A model generated the notes under the pieces. It worked only from the letters and a program-made list of their open reading frames with translations. It was not told where the DNA came from and searched no databases. A DNA stretch of 64,000 bases, taken from contig PCBK01000016.1 of NCBI GenBank assembly GCA_002731275.1, positions 1-64,000 of the forward strand, given 5' to 3'. Below are positions 9,852 through 46,764 of this stretch, one piece after another (the stretch's first letter is position 1; every line of letters begins with the position of its first letter). Made by a program: the position numbers and the translations under genes. The stretch comes from Deltaproteobacteria bacterium (GTDB taxonomy: Bacteria; Myxococcota_C; UBA6777).

Positions 9852-9855
9852 AAAA

Positions 9856-9878
9856 ACGTAGCGTAAATATACCCTACA
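9856..9878. repeat. 23-bp direct repeat, copy B
   Basis: Identical to 4819-4841. It starts four bases after the stop codon of the M14 peptidase gene. Confidence 0.75.
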
Positions 9879-10403: not shown

Positions 10404-10627
10404 CTTTTGGTTTGGGCGTGTCAAGTTCGGAGATATGTGAAACATGTGTTCGTTGAGTAAGCAGTGCTTTTTTCGCCGGGATCGGGAACATGAGCGGGTG
10501 TGTGTTGACTTATGTAACGAAATGGGCATCTTGGAAGAATAGATCTTTGGAATGGTGTGACCGTTCTAGTTGTTGTACGTGAAGACCCGCATGAATTTTC
10601 ACCTTCGTAGCATGTAGGAGCGAGAGC

Positions 10628-27132: not shown

Positions 27133-28308
27133 TTAGCGCCTTCTACGTTTTGGGCGTTTTTTCTTTTTTCGGGGGGCTCTTTGAGGGATCTTGTAGCTTT
27201 TTCCTGTGGGGGGGAGTCTTTTGATGATTGGGGTGGAGCTTCCGCAGCGAATACTCAGGCGATGTGTTCCAGTGTAGGGGCCATCAGCACGACGGTAAGC
27301 CGCTCTCATTTTGTCTGCATACCACCACCATGAGCCTCCTTTGAGGATGCGTTTTTTATAACGGACGCGACGAGGTCGTTTGTAGACTTTGCGTACACGT
27401 GTGTAAGTCGTTTGGTAGCGGACGGTGCGTTTTTTCCCTTTTCGAAGGGTGATGCGTTTGCGCGTTTTTTTCCAGAACCACCGGACCTTTTTCTTTTCAA
27501 AGCAAAGTTTGGAAGGTTTGCCATCACAGGGGCCTTTTGGGTTGATGCGAGGGCAGTTTTTGTCGTTGGGGTCATCACAGCCTGCGTATGCGTGGGGATC
27601 GTAGAAGTCTTGCACCCATTCGTACCCATTGCCCGCCATGTCGTAGATTCCACGGAAGGGAGGGGAGATGCCAACGGGCCAGGTTTGGTCTTGGCCGTGT
27701 AAGAAGAGTTTCTTGGTGTTGGCTTTAGGGTTGGGGCAAAAGCGCATTTTTCTGTACGCGGGGTACGATGTGTGGGGCGGGAAGGCGCGGTAGTTGGCTT
27801 TGGTGCAATCGGGAGGCTGGTTGCCCCACGGGTATGTATCTCCTTTTGGACCGCGGGCAGCGGCTTCCCATTCTGCTTCTGTGAGCAGGCGTTTACCAGC
27901 CCACTTGCAATATTGGTGTGCCAGAAACCACGTCGCTCGGACAAAGGGACGCTTTGGGGAGCGAAATCGTTTCCAGAAGGAGCCACCGATGATCGCCCAG
28001 TACGCTGGAGGTTTGCAGTGGCCGGCTTTCATACATTGGATGTATTGTTCATTTGTGACTTCGTACTTGTCGACGTAGAAGGTGTTGAGTGTGACTGCGT
28101 GTCTTGGGGACTCCGCACGCATCTGCCACTTCTTGTGTTGGGCGTTTCGGTTGCTTCCGCGAATATACTGCCCTCCTGGAACACAGACCATGTCTTTGGG
28201 GGCGTCTTTGCTGCACGGTTTGAAGGTGCGTTTGTTGGCCTCACTTTTTGGTTGGATGCACACAAAAAGGGCGGCGAATATGAAAGCTTGGATCAGTCGT
28301 TGCTGCAC
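27133..28308 (-). CDS. Secreted FGE-sulfatase (SUMF1)-fold protein
   Basis: 391 residues from GTG with GGAG before it, and a signal peptide (LIQAFIFAALFVCIQPKSEA). The formylglycine-generating-enzyme fold is clear: CVPGGQYIRGS, FYVDKYEVTNEQYIQCM, RLLTEAEWEAAARG, TYPWGN, YDMAGNGYEWVQDFY, KGGSWWW and the end LSIRCGSS. Many bacterial proteins of this fold are not sulfatase activators. It has a basic insert (about 265-320) and a strongly basic C-terminal tail (RAPRKKKKRPKRRRR). Located divergently upstream of the nuo operon, whose promoter lies in the 242-base gap. Confidence 0.85.
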   Translation of the reverse strand: MQQRLIQAFIFAALFVCIQPKSEANKRTFKPCSKDAPKDMVCVPGGQYIRGSNRNAQHKKWQMRAESPRHAVTLNTFYVDKYEVTNEQYIQCMKAGHCKPPAYWAIIGGSFWKRFRSPKRPFVRATWFLAHQYCKWAGKRLLTEAEWEAAARGPKGDTYPWGNQPPDCTKANYRAFPPHTSYPAYRKMRFCPNPKANTKKLFLHGQDQTWPVGISPPFRGIYDMAGNGYEWVQDFYDPHAYAGCDDPNDKNCPRINPKGPCDGKPSKLCFEKKKVRWFWKKTRKRITLRKGKKRTVRYQTTYTRVRKVYKRPRRVRYKKRILKGGSWWWYADKMRAAYRRADGPYTGTHRLSIRCGSSTPIIKRLPPTGKSYKIPQRAPRKKKKRPKRRRR

Positions 28309-28428
28309 AGCATGTCTCCGATGAAAAAGAATCGTTGCGGCTTGGATTGGACATCATTCTTCAGTCAACATCATAGCCTATCGTCTCTGGTGTGGGAAAT
28401 TCGTTGCAAGGTTGGTGTGATGTCCATG

Positions 28429-28457
28429 TTGACTTACGCTGGGAAATTCGCTATAAG
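28429..28457 (+). promoter_or_regulatory. Sigma70-type promoter of the nuo operon
   Basis: TTGACT (28429-28434), a 17-base spacer, and TATAAG (28452-28457), each one base from consensus. The predicted transcript would start near 28464, about 87 bases before the nuoA ATG. Confidence 0.7.
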
Positions 28458-28550
28458 TGCCTATGAATTGGAGAAAAGTCATCGTTGCGTTTCATCCAGA
28501 GTGGACTCAGCTCTCGCTGAAACATCGGCATCCGTTTGTGTAGGTGGGAA

Positions 28551-28925
28551 ATGGTAGGTTTTGTACACCTTTTTGCTGTTTTTGTGATCATGTCCTTGGT
28601 CTTGTGGGGGGCGAGGGCCTTTGTGAAGTCGATGCGCGATACATCTGGAGAGCATGGACATACAAAAGAGATCTCTGAAGGGGAACGTGCTGGTGTGCTA
28701 CTTCCGTATACGCACACACAGTCCATCATGCCTGTGATCCTGGTCTTTGTGCTGTTATTTCTTGGTACAGTGTTGCTTTTCCCTTGGGCGCTTGCGCGTC
28801 GGGCTGGCTATGTGGCAGAATGGCTCGGAGGTGGGGCTTTGTTTGCGCTTGTTCTGATCGTGAGCTGGTTTTTTGCCATCGGTCACGGTTTGCTTCCTTG
28901 GAGTGGTCAGGGAAAGAAGGATTGA
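28551..28925 (+). CDS. nuoA: NuoA-like NADH-quinone oxidoreductase subunit A, divergent
   Basis: 124 residues, three membrane spans, first gene of the nuo operon; AGGTGGG precedes the ATG. NuoA lies at the junction of the membrane and peripheral arms of complex I. The span pattern and LLFPWALARRAGYV match the FxPWA region of NuoA, but the acidic FDVE motif (Asp79/Glu81 in E. coli) is missing: the corresponding stretch reads LLFLGTVLL with no acidic residue. The identification therefore rests on order, size and topology together with the PWA segment. Confidence 0.75.
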   Translation: MVGFVHLFAVFVIMSLVLWGARAFVKSMRDTSGEHGHTKEISEGERAGVLLPYTHTQSIMPVILVFVLLFLGTVLLFPWALARRAGYVAEWLGGGALFALVLIVSWFFAIGHGLLPWSGQGKKD

Positions 28926-28974
28926 GCATTGTGGACAAAAAACCTCTCATCGTGAAATGTGGAGTGGAGCGCTA

Positions 28975-29568
28975 ATGTCTCATGTAACCCTTCATCAACA
29001 ACCATTCATCCAATCATCTCTCAAACACCTCGTTGAGTGGGCGGAGCAACACGTTTGTTGGCCGATGCCTTACGAGACCGCCTGTTGTTCTCTAGAGCTG
29101 ATGGCGGCGACCAGCGGTAACTACGACCTCGCGCGTTTTGGTGCAGAGTTAACGCTTTACTCTCCCAAACAAGCTGATTTGCTTTTGGTGCTGGGGACGA
29201 TCACCTGCAAACAAGCACCATTTCTGCAACGTGTATATCACGAGATGCTCGACCCCAAGTGGGTGATCGCAGTGGGGGGGTGTGCTGCCTCTGGCGGGCC
29301 GTACAACAATTATCATACGGTTCAAGGTGTGGACGGCTTGATCCCTGTCGACTTGTACGTTCCTGGATGCCCTCCACGCCCAGAAGCCATTATGAACGCG
29401 ATCTTTACGCTCATGCGACAACATGAAGACAGCGATACACAAGAAGATCTCAAGTCGCGACGCTCTGCGTCACTCTTCTCTCTCAAACAAACGGAGTCCT
29501 TCCAGAATTTGGCAAAAGAGAGCGCCAAAAAACAAGCACATCGAAAACAAAAATATGACTTTTTCTGA
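28975..29568 (+). CDS. nuoB: NADH-quinone oxidoreductase subunit B
   Basis: 197 residues from ATG 28975, 7 bases after GGAG. All four ligands of the terminal N2 [4Fe-4S] cluster are present: the tandem Cys in ACCSLELM, VGGCAASGG and PGCPPRPEA. RFGAELTLYSPKQADLLLV and DPKWVIAVGGC are typical of the family. N2 hands electrons to quinone at the NuoB/NuoD interface. An extra charged C-terminal tail of about 35 residues follows the usual end. The gene starts 49 bases after nuoA. Confidence 0.95.
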   Translation: MSHVTLHQQPFIQSSLKHLVEWAEQHVCWPMPYETACCSLELMAATSGNYDLARFGAELTLYSPKQADLLLVLGTITCKQAPFLQRVYHEMLDPKWVIAVGGCAASGGPYNNYHTVQGVDGLIPVDLYVPGCPPRPEAIMNAIFTLMRQHEDSDTQEDLKSRRSASLFSLKQTESFQNLAKESAKKQAHRKQKYDFF

Positions 29569-29606
29569 GACGATATGATGCCAGCGTGCGGATATGGAGA
29601 GCGTTC

Positions 29607-31313
29607 ATGAGTCAGGCGGTTCTCGACGAACTGCAGCGTCGTTTTTTTCAACATATTATTGAGACTTCAAGCGATGATGCTGAGGTGGTGATTTGCATCC
29701 AACGTATCGGCTTACTACCTCTCATCAAATACTTGTGGAGTGATCTGGAGTTTCATATCCTCGTCGATATTTGCGGTTGTGATTATCCCCAAAGAGAGCA
29801 AAGGCTCGAAGTTGTGTATCAATTCAAGATGGGGGATGAGGCACAACGGACGGATATTCGTGGCCTTCGTGTGCGTATTCGCGTCCCTCTTTTTGAACAA
29901 GATGCGGTCGTGCCTTCTTTGATGTTTTTGTTTCGCAACGCAAATTGGTTGGAGCGAGAAGTCTGGGATATGTACGGTATCCGCTTTGATGGGCACCCTG
30001 ATCTCCGACGCCTTTTGACGCACTGGAAGTTTGAAGGCCACCCTCTGCGTAAACGCTACCCCAAACAAAAACGTCAGTACCTCGATGAACCTGCGCCAGT
30101 CTCCTTTTTTAATGTCCGTCCAAGGCAGCGAGAAGACGGGGCGATGACTGAGGTCGTCGATATTGGTCCTATGCACCCAATCACCCAAGGGCGGCTGCGT
30201 CTGCTGCTCGAATTTAATGGTGAGCATGTCGTCGGTGGGGACGTTGAAATTGGTTATTTGCACCGGGGTTTTGAGAAGGAAGTCGAAGACCTCTTTTGGG
30301 GGGGGGTGATCCCCTATTGTGAGCGGCTCAACTACCACTCTGCGCCTGTAAACGCCATCGGCTATGCGATGGCTTGTGAACAGCTCGCGGGGATCGAAGT
30401 GCCGGAACGCGCCGTATGGATGCGCATGTTTTTTAGTGAGCTTGCGCGTGTGATGGATCATGCGCTGTGTCTCGGCAACGCTTTGCACCAGATGGGTGCA
30501 TTGACCCACTTTTGGTTCTTCTTTCAAGTGCGCGAGCTGTGTACGCAACTCTTTGAGCAGTTTTCGGGACACCGAGTCACTGGTGCGATGGTTCGCATTG
30601 GTGGGTATGTGGCGGATGTTCCTTCTGACTTCGAGGAGAAGGCGCGTGGGTTGGTCGCAAAACTTCGACCTAAGCTCGATGAATTAGAGCGTTTGTTGGT
30701 CAATAACCGTATCTTTTTGGATCGTACAGTGGGGGTTGGGCGGCTGCCAAAAGAGGCTGCGATTGCTTATGGTATGAGTGGACCCATTGCCCGGGCATCT
30801 GGGGTCGCTTTCGATCTTCGAAAAGATCGAACCTACGCATTTTACGACCAGATCGACTTTGAGATGGTGGTCGCGAGCAACGGGGATGTCTACGATCGGA
30901 TGATGGTTCGCTTTTACGAGATCAGAGAATGTCTCGATATTCTCGAACAAACAATAGGATATATCGCTACAACACACGGACAACCTGTGCTCGCAGATGT
31001 GTACGGTGTGACGCTGCCAGACATTCATGAGACATACACACAAATCGATGCGATGATGCGGCACTTTCAGCTTGCAACAAAAGGAGAGCAGTTGCCAAAG
31101 GGGGAAGGATATACCTGCATCGAGAGCCCCAACGGAGAGCTCGGTTTTTATCTCGTCAGTGACGGATCGAGCAAACCACAACGATTGCACGTTCGCTCAC
31201 CAAGTCTCTGCGCACTTCAGGGATTGATTCCAATGTCAGTCGGCGGGACGCTCGCTGAAGTTGGTGTCTTATTGGGATCTCTCAACATCGTCCCTGGAGA
31301 GCTTGATCGTTAA
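29607..31313 (+). CDS. nuoCD: Fused NADH-quinone oxidoreductase subunits C and D
   Basis: 568 residues from ATG 29607 (GGAGAG precedes; a GTG at 29586 is in frame). Residues about 1-165 are NuoC (LEREVWDMYGIRFDGHPDLRRLL, EGHPLRKRYP), the rest NuoD (49-kDa subunit; IGYLHRGFEK, GIEVPERAVW, GMSGPIARASG). C-D fusions are known from E. coli. The quinone pocket is altered: the motif usually written HPxxHG reads HPITQG, placing Gln194 where the quinone-binding His (bovine His59) should be, and the DxGA motif reads HQMGA, placing Gln295 at the partner Asp. The pocket tyrosine in RLNYHS is kept. Confidence 0.93.
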   Translation: MSQAVLDELQRRFFQHIIETSSDDAEVVICIQRIGLLPLIKYLWSDLEFHILVDICGCDYPQREQRLEVVYQFKMGDEAQRTDIRGLRVRIRVPLFEQDAVVPSLMFLFRNANWLEREVWDMYGIRFDGHPDLRRLLTHWKFEGHPLRKRYPKQKRQYLDEPAPVSFFNVRPRQREDGAMTEVVDIGPMHPITQGRLRLLLEFNGEHVVGGDVEIGYLHRGFEKEVEDLFWGGVIPYCERLNYHSAPVNAIGYAMACEQLAGIEVPERAVWMRMFFSELARVMDHALCLGNALHQMGALTHFWFFFQVRELCTQLFEQFSGHRVTGAMVRIGGYVADVPSDFEEKARGLVAKLRPKLDELERLLVNNRIFLDRTVGVGRLPKEAAIAYGMSGPIARASGVAFDLRKDRTYAFYDQIDFEMVVASNGDVYDRMMVRFYEIRECLDILEQTIGYIATTHGQPVLADVYGVTLPDIHETYTQIDAMMRHFQLATKGEQLPKGEGYTCIESPNGELGFYLVSDGSSKPQRLHVRSPSLCALQGLIPMSVGGTLAEVGVLLGSLNIVPGELDR

Positions 31314-31350
31314 CTGTTCACCTTGAATCTTCGAACACAGGACCGTTTGG

Positions 31351-32904
31351 ATGTCAGAGAAGGCCGCCAAGATCACAATGACTATTGATGGTAGAGAAGT
31401 GAACGCGACGAGTGGCGCACGTTTGCTCGATGTCGCAGCATCTGTGGGGGTTGAGATTCCTCATTTTTGTTACCATCCACAGCTCTCAAACCCTGCAGAT
31501 TGTGGGATGTGCCGGGTGCATATTGAGGGCGAAAAAGACCTGCAAACGGCGTGTAATACGTTTGTTGAAGAGGGGATGAATGTCCAAACGCGATCCGATG
31601 AAGTGCTCGAAGCGCTCAAGGAGACGATGACGGAGAAGTTGACGGGGCACCCTCTTGACTGCCCTGTCTGTGATAAGGCCGGAGAGTGTGCATTGCAAAA
31701 CTACGCCGAGTCTCTTCAGTTGTCGGGACTCTCCATTCCAAAAATCCGACGCAATAAACCAAAATCAGTCATCGTCGGTCCGACGTTGGTGTTGGATGGA
31801 GAGCGCTGTATTCAGTGTTCGCGTTGTGTTCGCTTTTCCGAGGAGATCGCAGGCGACAAAGAGTTTGTGATGTTGCCTTGTGATGGGGAGCTTCAACTGA
31901 CCGTCAAGAAAGAGGTGACCCATCCATACTCGACGAATCTTGCGGATATATGTCCTGTGGGAGCGTTGACGCAGAGGGATTTTCGAACAAAGCGACGTGT
32001 CTGGAGTCACCAGCAGGTGCAATCTGTTTGTCCTGAATGTGCGCGAGGTTGCAATATCATCTTGGATTGTGCTGAGGGGGAGGTGCAGCGCATTCGACCG
32101 GGGCACAACGACGCTGTGAACCAATGTTGGATGTGTGACGCTGGGCGAGTTGCGTATCGTTCAATTGCCTCGTCCTATCGCTTAAAAATGCCCTTGGTGT
32201 CGTTGCGTGGCAAGCTGGAAGAGGTCAGCTGGCAAGAGGCGTTTGACTACGTCGCTGGTTTTCTCGAAGAGGGGCAAGACCGACTGGCCTCCCAACTCTC
32301 TGCGCTGGCAAGTAACGAGGACAACTACACGATGGCGGCGCTACTTTCTCACCTGCACGCTCCTGCACCTGCGTCTTTACCTCAAGGTCCAGATGGGTGG
32401 GAGGACGTTGAGGAGGAGTTGTTGCGTCGCAGTGATAGAACGCCCAATCGGATGGGGGCGGAGGTGTTTTCTGGAGCACGTCCTTTCGTGGAATGTCTCG
32501 ACGGTGCAAGTACTGCGCTGATTCTTCATGAGAATGTACTTCCAGAGCCTCGCATTCATCGTTCGTTGCGTCATGTTATCTATCTCGGGACACACATGAA
32601 CGCGACTGCGCGGGCTGCGACGATTGTGTTGCCTGTGACCTTGTGGGCGGAACAGACAGGTAGTTTTACCAACTTTGAGGGGCGTGTTCAGCGGTTCTTT
32701 CAGGGGGTCGAGCCTCCTTCAGGTGTGCTCCCTGCCTGGAAAGTGTTTGTCGAGTTGCTTCAGATGTTTGGAGGCAAGCGCGCCCAACGGGTGGATGCTG
32801 TGTTCAACATGATGTCGCGTGAAACGGAGTTTTTTCAGGGTGTGACGTTTGCTTCTTTGGGAGAGAAGGGTTGGCGAGCGTTCATGACAAACGAAGAAGA
32901 TTGA
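31351..32904 (+). CDS. nuoG: NADH-quinone oxidoreductase subunit G, short form
   Basis: 517 residues against 680-900 for typical NuoG. N-terminal [2Fe-2S] ligands (CYHPQLSNPADCGMC ... QTAC), the His-Cys3 cluster (HPLDCPVCDKAGEC) and a ferredoxin cluster (CIQCSRC ... DICPVGA) are intact, as is the Fe4S4 module CPECARGC...CWMCDAGR of the molybdopterin-type domain. The remaining molybdopterin-like domain is short: after about residue 300 only a segment like TAIVLPVTLWAEQTGSFTNFEGRVQRF remains. NuoG normally passes electrons from NuoE/NuoF towards NuoB, but neither of those genes is in this operon. Confidence 0.92.
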   Translation: MSEKAAKITMTIDGREVNATSGARLLDVAASVGVEIPHFCYHPQLSNPADCGMCRVHIEGEKDLQTACNTFVEEGMNVQTRSDEVLEALKETMTEKLTGHPLDCPVCDKAGECALQNYAESLQLSGLSIPKIRRNKPKSVIVGPTLVLDGERCIQCSRCVRFSEEIAGDKEFVMLPCDGELQLTVKKEVTHPYSTNLADICPVGALTQRDFRTKRRVWSHQQVQSVCPECARGCNIILDCAEGEVQRIRPGHNDAVNQCWMCDAGRVAYRSIASSYRLKMPLVSLRGKLEEVSWQEAFDYVAGFLEEGQDRLASQLSALASNEDNYTMAALLSHLHAPAPASLPQGPDGWEDVEEELLRRSDRTPNRMGAEVFSGARPFVECLDGASTALILHENVLPEPRIHRSLRHVIYLGTHMNATARAATIVLPVTLWAEQTGSFTNFEGRVQRFFQGVEPPSGVLPAWKVFVELLQMFGGKRAQRVDAVFNMMSRETEFFQGVTFASLGEKGWRAFMTNEED

Positions 32905-32914
32905 GGTCGGCATC

Positions 32915-34210
32915 ATGGGATGGAGTATCGTTCAGTTTTTAGTACCTTTTGGGGTGATGAGTGCCATCGTGTTGCTGGTGATGGCGCCTCTGTCTGCGTG
33001 GATGTCGCACAAATTACGTGCTATGGCGGAGGAGAGGATCGGCCCCAACCGTATACATGTGTGGGGGTTTCGTCTCTCTGGAGTATGGCATAGCCTCGCG
33101 GTGATGATCCGTGTTCTAATGCGACAGGAGAAAGAACCAGCCAACAGTGAACGGTATCTCTTTCGTGCAGCTCCTTACTTCTCTCTGATAGGGTCTGTAT
33201 TGGCGCTCTCTTTGATTCCTTTTGCCCACGGTGTAGAGGTTTCGAGTGGTCATTTATCTTTTCAGGTGGCCAACGTCCACGCGAGTGTGTTGTTTTTTCT
33301 CATGTTGAACGTGTGGGGGCTTTTTGGGATCATCTCCGCGGGATGGTCTTCCAACAAACAAGCTACATTGCAAAGCGCGATTGAGCGTGTGACACAGGTG
33401 TTTGTTTACCGCTTGGGGGTGGCGTTGTCGATGTTGGCGTTGTGCTTGGCGTATGGCACCGCGGATCTGAGCATGTCAGTCCATCAGCAGAGCCATCTTC
33501 CGTGGTTGTGGGGCGCGGCCATTTCGCCTTTTGGACTGTTGCTATGTGGTGGGTGTGTCTTGGCCGAGTTAAGGGGGAATCCTTTCGCAGATACAGACTC
33601 TCCTATCCGCACAGTGCCCCAATATCGCTCTGAGTACGTAGGGTGGAAGAGCGCGGTGTTTGGTTGGGGAGATACGCTTCACCTGTTCTCCTTTGCGGCT
33701 TTGATCACGACGATGTTTTTGGGAGGGTGGCAAGTCCCGGGTCTCTCAACACAGCAGCTTGAGCGACACAGCGCGACATTGCTCGCTGTCTTTCTGATCT
33801 TTCTCGGTGGATTGTTGTGTCTCTTGGGAGCGAGCGCGCTTCATCGAATGTTGCGGCCTGCTGTTGTTTTTGGTGATGCGCGCGATCGTGAGTCGAGGCG
33901 GTTGTTTCCTATCGCTTTGGGGGTGGGGCTTGTGTGCCTGTGGTGTGGGATCTGGTTGCTTGGATGGGGGTGGAGTGTCCGACCTTGGGGCCAAGTGACC
34001 ATTCGCTTTGCATTTCAGTTGATGGCGTTTGTGGGCAAAATGCTCTTTTGTGTGTTTATGTTTTTGTGGATTCGGCTGAGTTGGCCTGTATTCCGAAGCG
34101 CTAGGAGCATGCGTGTCGCGGTATTGTACGTCGTTCCTTTGGGGATCTTTAATCTCTTTTTGACCTTGGTATTCTCGTGGGGAGTCCGGTCGTTTGGTTT
34201 GTGGGAGTGA
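32915..34210 (+). CDS. nuoH: NADH-quinone oxidoreductase subunit H, divergent
   Basis: 431 residues, at least eight membrane spans. Family marks: ERIGPNR (about 40-46), SAGWSSN (141-147), FLGGWQVP. NuoH forms the quinone tunnel and the start of the proton path. The acidic third loop is altered: E. coli PFDQPEAEQEL aligns without gaps to PFADTDSPIRT (223-233), so Glu218 and Glu220 become Pro and Arg, and Asp213 becomes Ala. The SYE glutamate (Glu157) is Arg166. Glu240 (SEY) is retained. About 100 residues longer than E. coli NuoH. Confidence 0.85.
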   Translation: MGWSIVQFLVPFGVMSAIVLLVMAPLSAWMSHKLRAMAEERIGPNRIHVWGFRLSGVWHSLAVMIRVLMRQEKEPANSERYLFRAAPYFSLIGSVLALSLIPFAHGVEVSSGHLSFQVANVHASVLFFLMLNVWGLFGIISAGWSSNKQATLQSAIERVTQVFVYRLGVALSMLALCLAYGTADLSMSVHQQSHLPWLWGAAISPFGLLLCGGCVLAELRGNPFADTDSPIRTVPQYRSEYVGWKSAVFGWGDTLHLFSFAALITTMFLGGWQVPGLSTQQLERHSATLLAVFLIFLGGLLCLLGASALHRMLRPAVVFGDARDRESRRLFPIALGVGLVCLWCGIWLLGWGWSVRPWGQVTIRFAFQLMAFVGKMLFCVFMFLWIRLSWPVFRSARSMRVAVLYVVPLGIFNLFLTLVFSWGVRSFGLWE

Positions 34211-34214
34211 TGTC

Positions 34215-34808
34215 ATGATCTCTGTTGAGCGTGAGCGAGAAAAGAACGGCAAAAATCGCTGGTTTCTTCCTTTATTGTGGTCTCTTTGGATGATCTTGAA
34301 GCGGCTCTCTTCGAACATCTGGGCGGCTTTGTTTCACCGCATGGATATGGAGCAGAGGACTTGGCAATATCCGGAGGAGCCCAGACGATACGAGGAGCGG
34401 ACACGACTGGTTCACAGGCTCGTGAAGCGTCCTGATGGGCGTCCAAAGTGCGTAGCGTGTGAACTTTGTTCGACTGTTTGTCCGACACAGGCGATTGAGA
34501 TGGTGGTGGGTGACTCTGCAGAGCCCGACGTTGGAAAGTTTCCACAGAGCTTTGCGATCGACGAGTTGCGTTGTATGTACTGTGGATTTTGTGTCAATGT
34601 GTGTCCCAAAGACGCGCTACGCATGGACACGGAGCTTGGTGATCTGGTTGGGACCAAGCGCGAAGATCTTGTGTTTGACTTGGAGTCTTTGCTCTCCATG
34701 CCACCTCGTCCTGGCGCTTCTTTGATCGACAAGGAGCTTGAGGCGGGGCGGCGTGATCCGGAGCAATCTTTTCTTGAGGTGACCCAACGTGAGCAGCTGT
34801 TGCCATAA
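34215..34808 (+). CDS. nuoI: NADH-quinone oxidoreductase subunit I
   Basis: 197 residues from ATG 34215, right after the nuoH stop with GGGAG upstream. Two complete ferredoxin motifs bind clusters N6a and N6b: CVACELCSTVCP and CMYCGFCVNVCP. It links NuoG to NuoB in the peripheral arm. The N-terminal amphipathic segment that rests on the membrane is present (WFLPLLWSLWMILKRL). The C-terminal part after about 145 is charged and longer than usual. Confidence 0.95.
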   Translation: MISVEREREKNGKNRWFLPLLWSLWMILKRLSSNIWAALFHRMDMEQRTWQYPEEPRRYEERTRLVHRLVKRPDGRPKCVACELCSTVCPTQAIEMVVGDSAEPDVGKFPQSFAIDELRCMYCGFCVNVCPKDALRMDTELGDLVGTKREDLVFDLESLLSMPPRPGASLIDKELEAGRRDPEQSFLEVTQREQLLP

Positions 34809-34826
34809 CGTATTGAGGAAGATGCC

Positions 34827-35393
34827 ATGAGCTTACTCGTAATTCTTACGTTGGTGGTGGGAGGTTTGACACTGGCTTCTGCGGTCATCGTCATTTTGTC
34901 GAAAAATCCTCTCTTCGCCATCGTGTATTTGTTTTTGACTTGTATGGGGGTCGCGTGTGAATTGCTGCTCTTGGGGGCTTTTTCGCTTGGTGTGTTGCAC
35001 TGGGCAGTGTCGGCTGTGAGTTTGATGGCGTTGTTCATGTTTTTGGCGATGATCTCGAAAAAGCGGAAAGATATACATCATTTAAAGACCTCGGTTCCTG
35101 TCGTGGTGCTGTCGGTCATGTTGGGGTGTGTTTTTTTGGCATCGAGTGTGAGTGGTCTTGGTGGCATGAGTGATCCTGTCGCGACGTTCTCTGTTGAAAC
35201 CATGTCGACAACTCCGAAAGGACATCAGCACATAAGGCAGAGTAAAGCGGGCTCGTTGTACCAGATGGGCACCGCGTTGACGGGACGGCACTTATTAACA
35301 TTTGAGCTGCTAGGTGTTCTGTTGTTGTTATCGTGTGTGGCGTTGGTCGTTTTTTTGCGAGGTGGAGATCGTTCTTCGAGGGGAGGTCTTTGA
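34827..35393 (+). CDS. nuoJ: NADH-quinone oxidoreductase subunit J
   Basis: 188 residues, five predicted spans. AIVYLFLTCMGVACELLLLGA and VLHWAVSAVSLMALFMFLAMI follow the NuoJ pattern of spans 2 and 3, though the usual Tyr-Val-Gly region of span 3 is changed to AVSAVSLMALF. GAGGAAG precedes the ATG. nuoK begins one base after the stop. Confidence 0.85.
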   Translation: MSLLVILTLVVGGLTLASAVIVILSKNPLFAIVYLFLTCMGVACELLLLGAFSLGVLHWAVSAVSLMALFMFLAMISKKRKDIHHLKTSVPVVVLSVMLGCVFLASSVSGLGGMSDPVATFSVETMSTTPKGHQHIRQSKAGSLYQMGTALTGRHLLTFELLGVLLLLSCVALVVFLRGGDRSSRGGL

Positions 35394-35394
35394 G

Positions 35395-35709
35395 ATGCGA
35401 GCGTTGAGTATTTGTATCACTTTGAGTGTGTTGTTGTTTACGGTTGGCTGTATTGGTGTATTACTGCGTAAAAAGTTACTGATGATGGTGATGTCCGTCC
35501 AGGTGATGCTCTTGGGGGTGGTGTTGGCGTTGGTGACGTTTTCGAGGGTACATGGGTTGCAAAATGGTCTTGCGATGGATGGTCAGGTGATGGCCTTGGG
35601 GGTGATCCTCTGGGGGGGCATGCAGGTTGTGTTGGGGGTCGGATTGTTGCAGTCGTTCTATCGGTCAAATCGTCAATCTGAGGAAGTCGATTCTTTGGGT
35701 GAACTTTAG
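35395..35709 (+). CDS. nuoK: NADH-quinone oxidoreductase subunit K with both key Glu replaced by Gln
   Basis: 104 residues, three spans, usual length. Layout matches NuoK closely: GVLLRKKLLMMVMSVQVMLL (residues 21-40) against the family's GLLTRRNL...GIELMLNA, and GQVMALGVILWGGMQ against GQVFAL...AAAEA. Both buried carboxylates essential in E. coli (Glu36 and Glu72) are Gln here: Gln36 (codon CAG at 35500) and Gln77 (CAG at 35623). GGGGAGG precedes the ATG. Confidence 0.9.
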   Translation: MRALSICITLSVLLFTVGCIGVLLRKKLLMMVMSVQVMLLGVVLALVTFSRVHGLQNGLAMDGQVMALGVILWGGMQVVLGVGLLQSFYRSNRQSEEVDSLGEL

Positions 35710-35732
35710 CAGTGTAGGGAGAGCTTTCGTCC

Positions 35733-37736
35733 ATGTTGCGGTATATTTTGTTGTTTCCCCTGTTGGGTACATTGCTTAACGGATGTCTGCCTCTCTTTGG
35801 TGTACGGCTCAAGCGACAGCATAGTGTGTTTATCGCCTGTTTGGCGTCCGTATGTACAGCGTTATGGAGTCTTCGTCTTTTGGTGACGTTGGCCTACTTA
35901 CCGGCAGGTCACCAGGTGATAGAGGATGTGCTGTACAACTGGATGCAAGTTGGGAGTGTGCGGATTCAGTTTTCTCTGTATGCAGACGTGTTGGGTGTGG
36001 GGGCTGCTGTTTTGTTGAGCCTTGTTGCCCTTCTGATCCATGTATACTCAGTGGGATACATGGCTCGTGATGAGGGATACGCGCGGTATTTTGCTTTGCT
36101 CAACGCGTTGTTGTTTTCGATGATGATGGTGCTCTTTGCTGGTAATGTCCTTGTGGGTATGTTTGGTTGGATGTGGGTGGGGTTGTGCATCGTCTTGTTG
36201 ATGAGCTTTTGGTACGTGGATGTTGAGCGTGTCAAGGTTGGGAGCAAAGCCCTCGCGTTGTTTCGCTTGGGGGATGTCGCGCTGTTGTTTGCGTTGGTGT
36301 TGTTGTATTGGAATGTCCACACATTGGACTGGTCTGTATTACGCCGTGTGGGAGATTCATCCTTATTGCCTGGTCTGTTAGCGCCGTGGTTGTGGGGGAT
36401 GTCGAAGATGGACTGGATCGGTGTATGTCTGGCGATTGGGGTGTTGTGTCGAACAGCACAGTTGCCATTTTACATGTGGCTGCCGGACTCTACTGCAGGA
36501 CCGGCGCCAGCGGTTGCCTGGATTCATAGTGCGATTTTGCCGTTGCTCGGCGTTTTTTGGTTGGCGCGTTTTCACTTCCTCTTGAAGTTTTCATCTGTCG
36601 CGTCTGGTCTATTGATCGTGTTTGGAGCGTTGACGTCGTTGTTGGTGATGGCCATCGCGATTTTTCAGTACGATGTGAAGCATACTTTGGCCTACATCGC
36701 GATGAGTCAGGTAGGGCTCATGGTCGTCGGGATTGGTGTGGGAGTTCCGGATGCTGTGATTTTCCATGTGTTTTCATTTGTCTGTTACATGACCGCGCTC
36801 TCATTGGCGGGAGGGGCCGTCTTGATGGGGATGCACTACGTGCAGGATATTCGGGTGATGGGAGGGCTCGTTCATTCGATGCCCTGGACCCATTGGGGCT
36901 TTTTGCTTGCGGTGTTTGCGGGCATTGGATTTCCGGGGTTTTCGGGTTTTTTTAGTGGCCATTCGTTGCTTTGGCGCTCGTTAGAGCGCGGTTATACGGC
37001 GGTTTGGTTGGTGGGGGCGATGACGATGGTGCTGCACGCTTTTTGTCTGGTGCGATTGTTGTGTTTGATCTTTTACGACACATTGCGCGGAGGGGAGCAG
37101 TTGCGGTGGCATTTGCCCGAAGGCCAGCCAAAAGAAGTCCCTTGGACGATGCGCATTCCGATGTACGTGTTACTGCTCGCGTCGTTGGTTGTTGGGGCGA
37201 TGCACGTGCCGACATTTTTTGGTGGAAAGGCCTTACTCGGTCATTGGTTACACGGTGGATTTATTGGGACAAAGGTCACGACAGAGACGATCTTGACGAG
37301 AGAGTTTTCGACGGGTGTGGTGTTTGTCGGTGTGTTCGTCGGTGCGTTGTTGGCGTTGTTAACTTTTGGACAGGGCGCAGTACAGGCATTGCGTAACGAA
37401 GCTCTTCTGCAAGTGAATGGTCGGGGCGGTGCTGCTGGGGTGTTCTTTCGCTGGGCGCAGCGTCGTTTTTACATCGATGTGTTTTTAGAGCTCGTGACTG
37501 TGAAGTTGTTGTTGCAGGTGGTTCGTTTTGTCCTCGCGCCTATCGAAAAGTACGTTATAGAAGGTGCTTTACGTTTGCTATCTGCGACGATCTTGGGCGT
37601 GGGAGTGATGTTTGGGCTTGAAAAGCGTGAACCTCCAGGAAGAGCCATCTCCATCGCTGTTTTTGTGTTGGTGTTGTGTTTGTTGTGGTGGATGCTTTCA
37701 AACGCGATGATCGTGGAAGGCATGGGAGGGGTTTGA
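35733..37736 (+). CDS. nuoL: NADH-quinone oxidoreductase subunit L, key charged residues lost
   Basis: 667 residues with the antiporter-like core and the long C-terminal lateral helix. Family marks: HVYSVGYM, SFWYVDVE, WLPDSTAGPAPAVAWIHSA, SQVGLM. Residues needed for proton translocation in E. coli are replaced: Glu144 by Met147 (FGWMWVG), Lys229 by Arg240 (CRTAQLP), Lys342 by Thr354 (YMTALSL), and Lys399/Asp400 by Gly409/His410 (GFFSGHSL). Asp181 (RLGD) is retained. Its stop overlaps the nuoM start (TGATG). Confidence 0.93.
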   Translation: MLRYILLFPLLGTLLNGCLPLFGVRLKRQHSVFIACLASVCTALWSLRLLVTLAYLPAGHQVIEDVLYNWMQVGSVRIQFSLYADVLGVGAAVLLSLVALLIHVYSVGYMARDEGYARYFALLNALLFSMMMVLFAGNVLVGMFGWMWVGLCIVLLMSFWYVDVERVKVGSKALALFRLGDVALLFALVLLYWNVHTLDWSVLRRVGDSSLLPGLLAPWLWGMSKMDWIGVCLAIGVLCRTAQLPFYMWLPDSTAGPAPAVAWIHSAILPLLGVFWLARFHFLLKFSSVASGLLIVFGALTSLLVMAIAIFQYDVKHTLAYIAMSQVGLMVVGIGVGVPDAVIFHVFSFVCYMTALSLAGGAVLMGMHYVQDIRVMGGLVHSMPWTHWGFLLAVFAGIGFPGFSGFFSGHSLLWRSLERGYTAVWLVGAMTMVLHAFCLVRLLCLIFYDTLRGGEQLRWHLPEGQPKEVPWTMRIPMYVLLLASLVVGAMHVPTFFGGKALLGHWLHGGFIGTKVTTETILTREFSTGVVFVGVFVGALLALLTFGQGAVQALRNEALLQVNGRGGAAGVFFRWAQRRFYIDVFLELVTVKLLLQVVRFVLAPIEKYVIEGALRLLSATILGVGVMFGLEKREPPGRAISIAVFVLVLCLLWWMLSNAMIVEGMGGV

Positions 37737-39253
37737 TGAACGGATTTTGGTTGTTTGCGTTGGTTTTGATCCCTTTTCTCGGTGCGTTGTGTATCTTGTG
37801 GGTGCCTTCTCGTTATCGAGCGTATGTGCCAGCCATCGGTTTTGTCGTGGGTATGCTCAATGTACTCGTGGTGGCTTGGTGTTGGTCACAGTTTGACGCG
37901 ACCTCACCTGTCGATCAGTTCCAGCTGAAGTTACGTTGGTTGCCGATTCTCCACGTCTCGTTTCGATTGGCTCTGGACGGTATCAACATCCTGTTTGTGT
38001 TGTTGGTTTCATTACTCGTGCCGTTTACGAGTTTGTTGTGTATCTCGATGGATGACGAGCGTCTGAAGAGTCGGACAATTGCATTGTTAATGGTCCAGGT
38101 GGGGGCGTATGGTTTCTTTCTGTCGAGGGATCTTTTTTTGCTCTTTGTGTCGTGGGAGTTGATGACATTCTCGACACTGTTCCTCAACGGGAGTTGGGGA
38201 CGTCAATCGTTTGAATCGAACAGGCGTTTTGCGATCTCTTCTGCGGTTGGTTCTGTTTTCTTGGGAATGTGTGTTTTTTATATGGGATTTCGGCATGAGA
38301 CATTTCATATCTCGGAGCTTGTGGGCAGCTTCTCGGTGTTTGAACAGAAGCTCTGTTTTGTGTTGATGGTGTTTGCGTTTGTGCGGAAAGCGGGTTTATT
38401 TCCTTTTCACGCTTGGTTCCCCCACATTGTCCCACACGCGCCGGTCTCTGGTGCGGTGTTGATTATGGGGATCTTGATCCCGTCGGGTGTGTATGCGGTC
38501 TTGCGAGTGATGTTGCCTCTTGCGCCGGCGGCGTTTGCTGAGTGGGGACATATCTTGATGTTCTTCGTCGCATTTGGTGGTGTGTACGCGTCTTTGTTGT
38601 CCTTGGTGCAGATTCACATATCTCGGAGACTTTCCTATATCTATATGAGCTATATGTCCTTTTCGATGCTCGGTGCGTTAAGTTTACGCGTCGAAGCAGT
38701 GCAAGGGGCGTTGGTGTTTGTGCTTTTTCAGTGCATTGCAGCGTCGGGGCTTTTGTTTCTCTTCGCGATTTTGCGCAAACACTTTGCGACGTCTCGTCTC
38801 GCTGAGCTTGGTGGTGTCGCGAAGCGTGTACCGTCCTTGACGACGTACTTTGTCTTGTTTGTCTTGTCGCTGATTTGCCTACCTGGATTGGCAGGCTTTT
38901 CGGGGGAGTTTCTTTTGCTCTTGGGACTCCTCTCATACCACCCTGTCTTTGCGATTGCGTTTGGTTTATCCTCTATTTTTGGTGTGTTGTCGTTGTGGGA
39001 GTTGGTGAGGCAGGTTTTCTTCGGCGCAGCGCAAGGCAAGCAAACGGAGGAAATCCAGGACATTTCGCGTGTACAAAGTGGTTGGTTGGTTGTGTTTTTG
39101 TGTCTTCTTTTGTGGGGAGGGTGGTCTCCTCACTCGTTTACTCATCGTACATCTGTCTCGGTATCAGCGTTGGTGATCAAGCTCCAGCAGGCGGTCAAGG
39201 CACATCGTGTCATGAGAACAAGACAACGTGTTGAGCAAAACGAACGACGTTAA
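37736..39253 (+). CDS. nuoM: NADH-quinone oxidoreductase subunit M
   Basis: 505 residues, antiporter-like subunit. Start is the ATG overlapping the nuoL stop by one base. In contrast with NuoL the central pump residues remain: Glu141 (FVSWELMTF), Lys218 (AFVRKAGLFPFHAW) and the GEF glutamate (AGFSGEFLLLLG). One change: the TMH8 lysine of ILLKTGAYG is Pro249 (ILIPSGVYA). Confidence 0.93.
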   Translation: MNGFWLFALVLIPFLGALCILWVPSRYRAYVPAIGFVVGMLNVLVVAWCWSQFDATSPVDQFQLKLRWLPILHVSFRLALDGINILFVLLVSLLVPFTSLLCISMDDERLKSRTIALLMVQVGAYGFFLSRDLFLLFVSWELMTFSTLFLNGSWGRQSFESNRRFAISSAVGSVFLGMCVFYMGFRHETFHISELVGSFSVFEQKLCFVLMVFAFVRKAGLFPFHAWFPHIVPHAPVSGAVLIMGILIPSGVYAVLRVMLPLAPAAFAEWGHILMFFVAFGGVYASLLSLVQIHISRRLSYIYMSYMSFSMLGALSLRVEAVQGALVFVLFQCIAASGLLFLFAILRKHFATSRLAELGGVAKRVPSLTTYFVLFVLSLICLPGLAGFSGEFLLLLGLLSYHPVFAIAFGLSSIFGVLSLWELVRQVFFGAAQGKQTEEIQDISRVQSGWLVVFLCLLLWGGWSPHSFTHRTSVSVSALVIKLQQAVKAHRVMRTRQRVEQNERR

Positions 39254-39264
39254 CGGAGGATGGT

Positions 39265-40803
39265 ATGAAGAGAGTGCTGTTAGAGTCGATGTTTGCGACC
39301 CGTCTGCTTGAGACCTCATGGATGTCTTTTGGGCCGGAGCTATGTCTTTTTATCGCGGCGTTGGGATTGTTGCTGTTGTCCGTGACCAAACAGGGGCGAA
39401 ATTGGGAGAGAGTGCTTGTGATGTTGGGGGTGTTCGCCTCTGCGGTGTTTGTGGTGTTTATCCCGAAAGGTGGTTATCCAGATCCGCAAAGCGCGAGTTA
39501 CCTTGCGATAGACATGTACTCTCGATTCTTTCACATACTCTTCCTCATGAGTGGATCTTTGGCGATGGCGCTGTTGACGCGGCGGTTGAAAGGGCGCGGA
39601 GATATCTTCTACGCCTTGGTTTTGTTGTCGACCTGTGGGTTGATGGTGATGGTCTCTGCACGGGATCTTTGGCTTATGGTGTTGGGTATGGAGCTTGCGA
39701 CGCTGTCGTTGTGTGTCCTTGTTGGGTACCTTGTGCCTTCTCGGAGGTTGCTACGTGTCAGTGTCTATCTGTTTTTGTACAACACTGTGGGGAGTGTCAT
39801 TTTGCTATTTGGGATCGTCTTTCTTTACGGTGCGATAGGGCACTTACACTACGACCAGATGGCTTTGAGTCTCGGCAACCAATTGGCGAATAAACCCTTT
39901 TTGGCGGTTGGTTCGATCTTTCTTGTGGTGGGTTTTGGCATGAAGATGGCCGTTGTTCCCTTTCACTCGTGGATGTCTGATGCGATTGAATTGACATGGA
40001 CACCACTCACCAATCTCCTCGATGTCACGATGAAGCTCTCTGTCCTTGCGGTCTTCCTTCGGTGGTTTATCGTTTCCATCGATGCAGCGAATGCTTCGTG
40101 GCTAGGAGCGCTGATTGGAGGCTTCTCTATCCTCGCGATGTTGTTTGGCAGTTTTTCTGCTGTGACACAGCGCTGTGTGAAAAAAGTTTTGTACTATGCG
40201 GCCCTCGCTCATACAGGGTTTTTCTTGCTCGCGATCATCTCTCGCCAGGAGCTTGGTGTACAGGCTGTTTTGGTGTATGCGCTTGTGTATGTCTTGATGT
40301 ACTACGGTGCATATACGGTCCTGTCGATCTTTGAAGAGAAGGTTGGGCAGTCCTTTCCTATCGAACATTTTGCGGGTTTTGCGCGCCGCTATCCAGGGCT
40401 GGCGTTTTGTATGTTGATCTTCTTGTGTTCGATGTCTGGTGTCCCGCCTACAGCCGGGTTTATGTGTCGCTGGCTAAGCCTCGGGAGTGTGATGAAGCTA
40501 CGCTCTGAGTGGGGATTCCTGCTCCTCTTGTCCGGGGGATTGGCCTCCATCTTGTTGAGCTATGCCTTTTTGAGAGTGCTCTACACCATGTATGTTGTTC
40601 CTGCGTCAGATAAAGCGGTGTTTACTAAGCAACCTTATCCTCTCGAACAACGCATCGCCTCTACACTTGCCGTATGTCTGCTCTTGATCGGTCTCTTTCC
40701 CCACGGGCTTTTGTACATCTCCAGCCAACACCAGTTACGACCCAACTTACAAAACCAGGTTCAACGCACCACCAAATCACCTGCGCTTGCCTCGCGAGAC
40801 TAA
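39265..40803 (+). CDS. nuoN: NADH-quinone oxidoreductase subunit N
   Basis: 512 residues, last gene of the operon; GGAGG precedes the ATG. Core residues are kept: Glu143 (GMELATLSL), Lys227 (GMKMAVVPFHSW) and Lys257 (DVTMKLSV). In PPTAGF(F)GK the lysine is Arg (PPTAGFMCRW). A palindrome follows 54 bases after the stop. Confidence 0.93.
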   Translation: MKRVLLESMFATRLLETSWMSFGPELCLFIAALGLLLLSVTKQGRNWERVLVMLGVFASAVFVVFIPKGGYPDPQSASYLAIDMYSRFFHILFLMSGSLAMALLTRRLKGRGDIFYALVLLSTCGLMVMVSARDLWLMVLGMELATLSLCVLVGYLVPSRRLLRVSVYLFLYNTVGSVILLFGIVFLYGAIGHLHYDQMALSLGNQLANKPFLAVGSIFLVVGFGMKMAVVPFHSWMSDAIELTWTPLTNLLDVTMKLSVLAVFLRWFIVSIDAANASWLGALIGGFSILAMLFGSFSAVTQRCVKKVLYYAALAHTGFFLLAIISRQELGVQAVLVYALVYVLMYYGAYTVLSIFEEKVGQSFPIEHFAGFARRYPGLAFCMLIFLCSMSGVPPTAGFMCRWLSLGSVMKLRSEWGFLLLLSGGLASILLSYAFLRVLYTMYVVPASDKAVFTKQPYPLEQRIASTLAVCLLLIGLFPHGLLYISSQHQLRPNLQNQVQRTTKSPALASRD

Positions 40804-41200
40804 GCTTCCTATCTTTGCTTCCAACGACCTCATCAGCCAAGAAAGACTCCATGGACTCCCTCAAATTTTTGAGGGCACCGGTGAAAAGATGTCTTGATCC
40901 GTTCGCGTTGGAGCTAGACTGTATCGAACTTTGCCTGTGACTTTTCCCTGTTTTCCGAGTTGTTTGATACGTATTTGAATATGGATCAATATGTGCATAG
41001 ATAATGCCTTGGTCGTGGTGAGTTCTTTTGAGAGCAGAGAGCGCGAGATATACGCAGTCATCGTACAAACAACCACACATGTATGACATCTCTTCTCTTG
41101 ACGCTTAAAGAGACACCATCTACCCTGTTTGCTCTGTCGAGTTAAGTGGAACAAACAGGTTTCCCTTGTGGGAGCGTGTTGCAATCGGAAGCGGTGGATT
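40804..41200. other. 397-bp interval between nuoN and the kinase gene
   Basis: No gene supported. It holds the palindrome at 40858-40875 and a weak promoter-like pair, TTGAAT (40975-40980) and TAGATA (40998-41003) with a 17-base spacer, which could serve the kinase gene. Small frames on both strands lack ribosome binding sites. Confidence 0.5.
40858..40875. terminator. Palindrome CCCTCAAATTTTTGAGGG after nuoN
   Basis: Eight-base perfect arms around TT, 54 bases after the nuoN stop. The arms end in A/T next to the centre. There is no T-tail beyond it, so its role as terminator is plausible but unproven. Confidence 0.45.
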
Positions 41201-44014
41201 ATGAAACATTCTGCAGAGGACGCCAAAAAACTCATCTTCCTGGCAAGGGAAAAGGGGTTGCTGTCAACACCACAGACCATCCAAATCACCCTCCAACTAG
41301 AGGAATATACAGGTGATATGGTTGAGCGTGTACGAGAACATATGTTGACCGCGGGGTGGATAACCGAGGACGTCTTCAATGAGTTGTGTGGTGCCCTCGA
41401 ACAAGGGGGAGAGCAACTCTTGGACGCTGCAGAAGCCTCTCTGGATATGTTCCAAACCCTTCGCGAAACCGTCTCTCTCGGTAGCCACCATGAAGAGGAG
41501 CCTTTCTCGCTCCGCTCCCCCGTTCATCTCACTCTCTCTTTTCAAGACGAGGAAAAGCCTCCTGCCGTCGAAAAAGAGTTCGATCCCCCCGCATTTGAAG
41601 AGACTCTTCAACTCGATTCCGTACGAACCGACGAGATCACTGAGACTGTCCAGATCTCACAAGCAGAAGCGGCTGAGTGGTCGCCTGCAGTGATCCCTGA
41701 AAAACGCTATCAGATAGGGAAAGAACTCGGTCGTGGTGGTCTTGGCGTCGTTGCAGAGGCCTTTGACCACAATCTCGGTCGCAAAGTTGCCCGCAAGACG
41801 TTGCTGACAAATAAAGAGGCCTCCAAGCAAGAGTTACGTATGTTCATCGAAGAGGCTCGTCTCACTGGACAACTGGAACATCCGAATATCATGCCTGTTT
41901 ACGAGATCGGGATGTTGGAAGATGAGCAGCTCTACTACACGATGCGTCTGCTCCCACCCAACAATCTCGAACAGGCGATCAACGAAGGGAAGCTGTCTGT
42001 CCTGCAATTTGTCAGGCTTTTACAACAGGTCTGCATGGGCTTGGAATACGCTCACTCCCGTGGTGTTGTCCACCGAGACATTAAACCTGCAAACATCATC
42101 CTTGGTCAATTTGGTGAGGTTTTGATTCTCGATTGGGGAACCGCCAAGATCCTCGAACCACAGGCAGATTTGGGGAACGCTCCGACACATCCCGGTCATG
42201 CAACGCAAACGATCAAAGGAACCCCTGCGTACATGGCACCCGAGTTGATCAAGTTGGGGTTGGTGACGCCGTATATCGATCAGTACGCTCTGGGCGTCAT
42301 TTTGTACGAGATCCTGACCGGTGAAATGCCCGTATATAGCGAAAATATCTACACTCTGATGTTTCAAATTTGCTCTCAAGAACCGATTCCGCCTAGAGAA
42401 CGTGCACCTGAAAGACATATCCCAGAGGAACTTGAAGCCATCTGCCTGAAGATGTTGGAGAAAGATCCTGATGAGCGGTTCGCTTCCTGTCGTGAAGTGC
42501 ATGATCGACTTGAGGATTTTCTCGAAGGGACCAAGGAGAAAGAGCGACGCCGACAGGCCGCACTGGATCGGATGACAGAGGCAACAGAGATCGCCGGAAG
42601 ATATCATGAGAACAGAGCGATGGCGTTGTGGCTCAAAGAGGACTGGGAGAAAGCCCAGAAGGAAGTGAAACCCTGGGAAGCGCTCGATAAAAAGCGCAAG
42701 GTGTGGGACAAAGAGCGCGCATATCATTCTTGTATGCAGGAGACGATTTCTCTGTTCGGTGAAGCCATCCAAAAGTACGATCAGGCGCTCGATCATGATC
42801 CCAGCAACAAAGAAGCTCGACGTGGTCTGGCTGACCTACATTGGAGTCGCTTTCTGGAAGCCGAACAGCAACACGACGAGCTCGCACAAATCTACCATCG
42901 TGATCTCGTAAAGTTTTACGATGACGGACATTATGAGCGCTTGCTGGAAGGAAAGGGTTCACTGACAATCGACACCAATCCTTCAGGCGCAAACGTCAAG
43001 ATATACCGTTATGAGGAGCAGGATTGTCAGTTGGTTCCAGTGTTAATCGATGAACCTGGATGCACACCGCTGCGCGTGGATATGTCGATGGGGTCGCACC
43101 TGATCATTCTAGAGAAGGAAGGATTCCGCGATGTACGCTATCCTCTCTATCTCAATCGATGCGAACAGGCAGACGTCAAGGTCAACCTCTACACTGACGA
43201 GCAGATTGGCGAGGATTTTGTCTATATCCCTGCAGGCTCTTTCCCATATGGTGGAGATAAAGAAGCCCCTATGAGCGAAGGACTACGCTATGTCGAGTTG
43301 GATGACTTTTTCATTTCGAAATATCCTATCACTTTTGCCCAATACGCAGATTATCTCAATGAAAAGGGAATCAAAAATCCGGATCTTGTGAAGGATTATA
43401 TACCTCGAAGCATCGAAGAAGAATTTATGGTTGTTAGTGAGGAAGGAAACTACATACCGTTGTATGGCTCGCTTTTCTCGGGGAAAATAAAAGAAAGATA
43501 TCCAGAGGGGAGCAAGTTCGAGTTCCAACTCCCGGTGTTTGGTGTTACTTGGTTCGAGGTTTTTGAATATTGTGAGTGGCGTTCTCAACGAGAAGGAAAA
43601 ACTTATCGTTTGCCAACCGAAGAAGAGTGGGAAAAAGCATCCTCTGGGTGTGATAATCGTCTTTATCCTTGGGGCAATAGTTTCGAGGCCACGTTTGCAA
43701 AAACAGGACTGGCTCGTTCTCCTGATGAACTCCAGCCCGAACCCGTTGGTTGTTTTGTTCAGGATACATCGCCTTACGGAGTTCGGGATATGGTAGGTAC
43801 AGTCGCTGAGTGGACACAGGATAGTGATGTTGAGAAAGTGAAGGGTGCAAATTCACGACGTGAGTATACCTCTGTTCAGAGGGGAGCTGGCTGGGTTGCT
43901 TCGAATGTTCTTAGCTACCGTATTGGCTCGCGTGTTCCAAAGAACGGAGAAATGCGCTCCTACAATTGTGGTTTTCGTGTCGTAACTATACCGGAATTTT
44001 CGAAAGAATCATAA
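41201..44014 (+). CDS. Ser/Thr protein kinase fused to PEGA-like and FGE-sulfatase domains
   Basis: 937 residues from ATG 41201. Residues about 1-165 are an acidic helical leader. Kinase domain about 168-440: glycine loop GRGGLGVVAEA, Lys in VARKT, catalytic HRDIKPAN, and LDWGTAK in place of DFG (the Asp is kept), then GTPAYMAPE. A helical Lys/Glu-rich region follows (about 445-580), then a PEGA-like beta domain (GSLTIDTNPSGANVKIYR ... GFRDVRYPL, about 585-670), and a C-terminal FGE-sulfatase fold (FVYIPAGSFPYGGD, RLPTEEEWEKAS, YPWGN, VAEWTQD, CGFRVV). No membrane segment is evident, so it is probably cytoplasmic. The lipoprotein gene follows after 18 bases. The FGE part probably acts as a binding or sensing domain, by inference. 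Confidence 0.9.
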   Translation: MKHSAEDAKKLIFLAREKGLLSTPQTIQITLQLEEYTGDMVERVREHMLTAGWITEDVFNELCGALEQGGEQLLDAAEASLDMFQTLRETVSLGSHHEEEPFSLRSPVHLTLSFQDEEKPPAVEKEFDPPAFEETLQLDSVRTDEITETVQISQAEAAEWSPAVIPEKRYQIGKELGRGGLGVVAEAFDHNLGRKVARKTLLTNKEASKQELRMFIEEARLTGQLEHPNIMPVYEIGMLEDEQLYYTMRLLPPNNLEQAINEGKLSVLQFVRLLQQVCMGLEYAHSRGVVHRDIKPANIILGQFGEVLILDWGTAKILEPQADLGNAPTHPGHATQTIKGTPAYMAPELIKLGLVTPYIDQYALGVILYEILTGEMPVYSENIYTLMFQICSQEPIPPRERAPERHIPEELEAICLKMLEKDPDERFASCREVHDRLEDFLEGTKEKERRRQAALDRMTEATEIAGRYHENRAMALWLKEDWEKAQKEVKPWEALDKKRKVWDKERAYHSCMQETISLFGEAIQKYDQALDHDPSNKEARRGLADLHWSRFLEAEQQHDELAQIYHRDLVKFYDDGHYERLLEGKGSLTIDTNPSGANVKIYRYEEQDCQLVPVLIDEPGCTPLRVDMSMGSHLIILEKEGFRDVRYPLYLNRCEQADVKVNLYTDEQIGEDFVYIPAGSFPYGGDKEAPMSEGLRYVELDDFFISKYPITFAQYADYLNEKGIKNPDLVKDYIPRSIEEEFMVVSEEGNYIPLYGSLFSGKIKERYPEGSKFEFQLPVFGVTWFEVFEYCEWRSQREGKTYRLPTEEEWEKASSGCDNRLYPWGNSFEATFAKTGLARSPDELQPEPVGCFVQDTSPYGVRDMVGTVAEWTQDSDVEKVKGANSRREYTSVQRGAGWVASNVLSYRIGSRVPKNGEMRSYNCGFRVVTIPEFSKES

Positions 44015-46614: not shown

Positions 46615-46764
46615 TTTGATGAAGAAAGACTTTTTCACCGTGCCCAACACCACTCACTTTTGTTTGTGACAAAAGGAGTGATGTGCTGTGTGATTGGGCG
46701 ATGAAATAGCTTGTGTCGAAGGTATCGTCGGTGTTTTGCACTTTTCAGTTAAGGGGTGCTATGG

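Follow-up and report, generated by a model that had tools for sequence, protein, structure and literature searches.

To our knowledge, all models of coupling in complex I centre on the E-channel, and published tests alter single residues one at a time. It is still debated how the reduction of quinone powers pumping at sites hundreds of angstroms distant. The E157(H)-D79(A)-E36(K) series is a highly conserved proton route (PMC13324432). In E. coli, the NuoA change D79N alone leaves quinone activity at 26% and pumping at about 19-22%; electron transfer and pumping fall together, in proportion, and the stoichiometry is unchanged (PMC13324432). Because the stoichiometry holds, the usual effect of breaking the E-channel is a slower enzyme, not a decoupled one. 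The proportional losses also mean that the proton path cannot simply be cut and that other changes must restore turnover. In complexes without NuoEF, ferredoxin or flavodoxin is the likely electron donor (PMC6682613; PMC11238625). We found no paper on a natural non-pumping complex I in the literature searched.

The window analysed here is a 64,000-nucleotide stretch from a draft metagenome-assembled genome (MAG) of 10.75 Mb (200 contigs, 94.65% complete, 5.5% contamination). It carries an intact complex I operon at 28551-40803 on the + strand, in the order nuoA, B, CD, G, H, I, J, K, L, M, N, with NuoC and NuoD fused and a short NuoG. Every subunit is recognised as complex I by Pfam or NCBIfam profiles (NuoM was compared with Pfam alone, NuoN with NCBIfam alone), many of them under the curated equivalog cut-offs. 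NuoB, C, D, H and I stand in one operon with homologues of A and J-N, as in the Complex I (NDH-1) superfamily, and the NuoD domain scores are those of a complex I NuoD/CD. The product of nuoA (28551..28925) is NuoA-like, with a PF00507 E-value of 8.6e-4 that lies under the Pfam cut-off; AGGTGGG stands ahead of its ATG at 28551, though translation may begin further upstream, at a TTG (28536). A search of the region upstream of the operon (28308-28551, + strand) found no sigma-70-like promoter, and promoter-like sites are rarer there than in shuffles. Two Ser/Thr kinase genes lie near the operon at 41129-44014 and 46756-48621; the latter has a PEGA domain, and the gene at 41129 appears, by eye, to have kinase-like and sulfatase-modifying-factor-like parts.

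The draft state of this MAG, with its contamination and its missing part, leaves some room for an assembly error, for foreign DNA or for a canonical operon lying outside the assembly. We consider such an artefact extremely improbable, as the tetranucleotide profile of the operon and of the rest of the window fits best to other contigs of the same genome (0.84-0.95), the gene order and the CD fusion recur in the family, and assembly error could not produce 140 point changes in open frames. The original prediction proposed a search for a second, canonical nuo operon in the same genome; only one NuoH was found in the 94.65% that is present.

The operon lacks nuoE and nuoF, a loss absent from the original prediction. 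Between nuoCD and nuoG there are only 37 bases (31313..31351, + strand), and it is at this place that two relatives of the same family, the "Myxococcota bacterium" MAGs G002 (JAKLKB010000089.1) and G004 (CAUJFU010000234.1), have both genes. Elsewhere in the window genome, the sole NuoF domain match is fused to NuoE inside a formate dehydrogenase. Without NuoE, NuoF and their FMN/NADH site the enzyme is no 14-subunit NADH:quinone oxidoreductase, and a role as an ordinary NADH dehydrogenase is therefore ruled out. The formate dehydrogenase (C35:211000-230000, 8400-12817) is NAD-linked; a single in-frame TGA interrupts its large subunit where Sec or Cys usually stands (...NVHQCAAT-U-HAPTVAGL...), and it is probably a selenoprotein.

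The iron-sulphur wire NuoG-NuoI-NuoB is intact. All 27 conserved cysteines are kept: 4/4 N2 ligands in NuoB (28957..29568), 8/8 for the two 4Fe-4S clusters (N6a/b) in NuoI (34215..34808), and 15/15 in NuoG (31351..32904), whose short form of 517 amino acids is like that of the relatives. At the quinone site the record is mixed. NuoCD (29607..31313, or from a possible earlier GTG at 29586, from which its residues are numbered here) retains the Tyr (E. coli Y277/Y273) as Tyr250, while the His (E. coli H228 in the 600-residue numbering, H224 in the numbering used) has become Gln201 in a column that holds His in all gap-free panel sequences. With this His lost, quinone is a probable acceptor but no longer a sure one.

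We compared the key membrane-arm residues with panels of 17-91 other complex I sequences, in which they are nearly invariant (E. coli residues are given first, window residues second). The window differs at every key site: NuoK E36/E72, NuoA D79/E81, NuoH E157/D213/E218/E220 and NuoL E144/K229/K342/K399. Both NuoK (35395..35709) carboxylates are Gln (E36->Q36, Glu in 86/87 of the panel; E72->Q77, 84/87); the one other NuoK-like panel sequence without both seems, from its sequence, to resemble an Mrp antiporter subunit. NuoA has lost the acidic FDVE motif (D79->F75 and E81->G77, 17/17 in the panel each, and F78L). The changes in NuoH (32915..34210) are E157->R166 (66 Glu and one Asp among 67), E218->P230, E220->R232, D213->A225 (67/67), D63->V63 (65 Asp, 2 gaps) and E36->S31 (64 Glu, 3 gaps), with R37H, R148E and E216 to D besides; E228 is kept and the loop still holds the acidic D226 and D228. 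NuoJ (34827..35393) has lost Y59 (S62) and G61 (V64) of TM3. In NuoL (35733..37736) we find E144->M147 (90/91), K229->R240 (Lys in 91/91), H338 to F, K342->Met353 and K399->G409 (91/91 for these last three), and D400->H410, with D178 and H254 retained. NuoH also has an insertion of about 90 residues (about 33750-34050), with extra predicted helices, which is common to G002, G004 and the distant genome G029.

The original prediction had read most of these replacements correctly: those of both NuoK carboxylates, of the NuoA motif, of NuoH E157, E218 and E220, and of NuoL E144, K229, K399 and D400 all stand against E. coli and the panels. It was right that NuoL K342 is lost and wrong about the replacement, having named Thr354. 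Its statement that NuoM and NuoN keep their Glu-Lys core is true of the TM5 Glu (Glu144) and TM7 Lys (Lys234) of NuoM (37736..39253), where Glu407 is kept too, and of E133, K217 and K247 in NuoN (39265..40803); but the NuoM core is not intact, having lost K265->P249, the central Lys, H322->Y306 and H348->Q332, and NuoN has K395->R402 (NuoN E104->I114 is a further change). Thus the E-channel carboxylates of a proton-pumping complex I are missing from H, A and K, and its Glu/Lys pairs and central Lys are mostly kept in NuoN, half kept in NuoM and lost in NuoL. The alignments show all protonatable steps of the E157(H)-D79(A)-E36(K) route to be gone, together with several central NuoL and NuoM residues. 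Compensating acidic residues at neighbouring positions, which by the original prediction's own account would have told against it, are absent from the TM columns of NuoA and NuoK; NuoA has no charged residue in its TM columns at all. Glu45 in a TM column of NuoJ was rejected as a replacement because G002, whose complex I is canonical, also carries Glu at that site. AlphaFold models of NuoH and NuoL, built from three-row alignments, have mean pLDDT values of 39 and 34 and are unusable.

In the collection searched, the phylum of the window genome comprises five genomes in one family, and a GTDB scan for closer relatives found only G002 and G004. Their operons are orthologous to that of the window, the three forming a clade in the tree of each subunit. 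They share with it the gene order, the CD fusion, the short NuoG and the NuoH insertion, and differ in keeping nuoE, nuoF and the near-invariant membrane-arm residues of a 14-subunit complex I (NDH-1). The change is therefore derived in the window's lineage. This one family thus holds a canonical 13-gene complex I (G002, G004), the altered one, one of another type in G001, with no NuoE, F or G recognised, and, in G003 (86% complete), no match to NuoH. In G029 there are two complex I operons (L046, L044), one with E, F and G and the other without them on the stretch examined.

How far does the change extend? For each subunit we set the window against E. coli and 15-29 complex I sequences from other families, and took a column as conserved when 95% or more of this panel shared one residue. 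The window changes 140 of 305 such columns (46%) in the membrane arm (A 4/7, H 24/46, J 3/3, K 4/7, L 45/110, M 38/79, N 22/53), against 17 of 143 (12%) in the peripheral arm (B 6/36, CD 5/62, G 1/25, I 2/15). Since G002 and G004 change none in A, H, K, L, M and N and 1/4 in J, chance is excluded as the source of the window's losses. The original prediction had taken the losses for one coherent set of proton-carrying residues, which the counts do not support. Conserved membrane-arm sites are lost at similar rates whether charged (35/78, 45%) or not (96/227, 42%; Fisher p = 0.69), and NuoM is hit as well; we accordingly rejected a selective loss of charges. Conserved Gly and Pro are retained at 63 of 78 membrane-arm sites, and hydropathy profiles track those of the relatives (r 0.67-0.82).

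The window branch is 2.47 substitutions/site long for H and J-N (sister G002, 0.42) and 0.73 for NuoB plus CD (G002, 0.23); all subunits are accelerated, and even B, CD, G and I by a factor of 2-3. In the membrane arm the rates of conserved and variable sites have drawn closer together (ratio 0.61 vs 0.18). Membrane-arm identity between the window and G002 is 34%, lower than the 45% median of G002 with other families, whereas it is 68-70% for pyruvate:ferredoxin oxidoreductase (PFOR) and two haem-copper oxidases and about 65-83% for the Nqr subunits, and we rejected a generally fast-evolving genome on these figures. It looks as though the whole membrane arm has been released from its usual constraint while the fold and the electron wire were retained, a loosening overlooked in the original prediction. 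The changed coupling path that it had proposed is borne out as far as the proton-path residues are gone, but the pattern resembles a general release more than a designed new path.

Could the enzyme still pump, perhaps fewer protons or a different ion, through NuoN and what remains of NuoM and NuoH? All membrane subunits are present, for which a pure electron-transfer enzyme has no obvious need; the Glu and Lys residues named above persist in NuoN and NuoM; and some TM columns of NuoL and NuoM hold new charged residues. Nonetheless a re-routed path seems unlikely to us, as nothing is left to connect quinone with the antiporters (neither NuoA nor NuoK retains a TM carboxylate, Arg stands in place of NuoH E157, and the NuoJ TM3 Tyr and Gly are lost) and the losses are unspecific to charged sites.

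The genes show no decay, as the original prediction had noted from their intact frames and Fe-S ligands. Despite about 2.5 substitutions per site, the roughly 4,000 codons are free of stops and frameshifts, whereas G002 membrane-arm genes mutated neutrally in simulation have acquired 22-30 stops by 80% identity and 62-75 by 40%. Purine-rich, Shine-Dalgarno-like sites precede most genes, including H, J, K, L, M and N. A pseudogene is rejected on these grounds and on the Fe-S ligands, and the comparison with simulated genes shows reading frames kept open by selection. The same facts bear on a complex on its way out, with Na+-NQR having taken over and the membrane arm decaying ahead of the peripheral arm. 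Redundancy with Nqr, the loss of NuoE and NuoF, the acceleration of every subunit, the converging site rates and the lack of a NuoH match in sister genome G003 are what such relaxed selection would leave; neutral drift would also have left tens of stops, and would hardly have spared the ribosome-binding sites and all 27 cysteines. We regard it as unlikely.

The window genome encodes a complete Na+-NQR (nqrABCDEF and apbE), a PFOR and three haem-copper oxidase genes; the Na+-NQR and PFOR go unmentioned in the original prediction. G002 and G004 carry both Nqr and an ordinary complex I, from which we infer that Nqr probably predates the alteration of complex I. The reading we favour, with moderate confidence, is that of a complex I derivative that no longer oxidises NADH and has most likely given up proton pumping. 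By analogy with NuoEF-less complexes elsewhere, ferredoxin, flavodoxin or some other partner would hand electrons to NuoG, and these would pass along NuoG-NuoI-NuoB to menaquinone with little or no ion pumping, so that fewer protons are presumably moved. The complex would still assemble, as NuoA, H and J-N keep their topology and most Gly and Pro, and might work as a sink for low-potential electrons or as a valve for redox balance, with coupled NADH oxidation handled by Na+-NQR. Against this reading stand the proportional losses of D79N in E. coli, the lost quinone-site His, which makes quinone less than certain as the acceptor, the persistence of NuoN, part of NuoM and the NuoH loop acids, the lack of a donor gene near the operon, and the reliance on one genome, 94.65% complete, that has no close relative.

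A membrane arm recruited outside quinone-linked respiration, as a scaffold or a carrier driven by the retained redox wire, would also fit the retention of Gly and Pro while function-specific side chains go, and the replaced quinone His. The quinone Tyr and the peripheral arm are kept, however, and we found no new domain in the operon proteins and, inside the flanking genes, no new gene joined to the operon, which makes recruitment very unlikely.

It is tempting to go further than the favoured, decoupled derivative and to suggest, more tentatively, that evolution has split electron transfer from proton pumping in this complex I, the redox arm being selected while the E-channel and the NuoL and NuoM proton sites were erased, as enabled by the loss of NuoEF and by Na+-NQR. 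The operon alters the whole proton path at once in a complex kept by selection. If quinone is still reduced, it would be a natural decoupled complex I; if the complex still pumps, the accepted proton path would not be the sole one. The suggested route is that complex I sheds its donor module first and its pump next, given Na+-NQR as the other coupled NADH dehydrogenase.

Several known enzymes share parts of this design. The Campylobacterota complex I has NuoG and lacks NuoEF, as here, but nuoXY replaces nuoEF there and the window has only the 37-base gap (PMC6682613); moreover, that enzyme is described as proton-pumping (PMC6682613), whereas the window's proton path is lost. The Desulfitobacterium enzyme (PMC11238625), Fpo and cyanobacterial NDH-1 are also without the NADH-oxidising subunits; they are described as an energy-coupling core, from which the window differs, and the window has NuoG. 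The other antiporter-type genes of the window genome form an Mrp cluster (C67), whose subunits are homologous to the NuoL/M/N/K type. Unlike Mrp, the operon described here includes NuoB, CD, G, H and I, and it groups with complex I in every tree.
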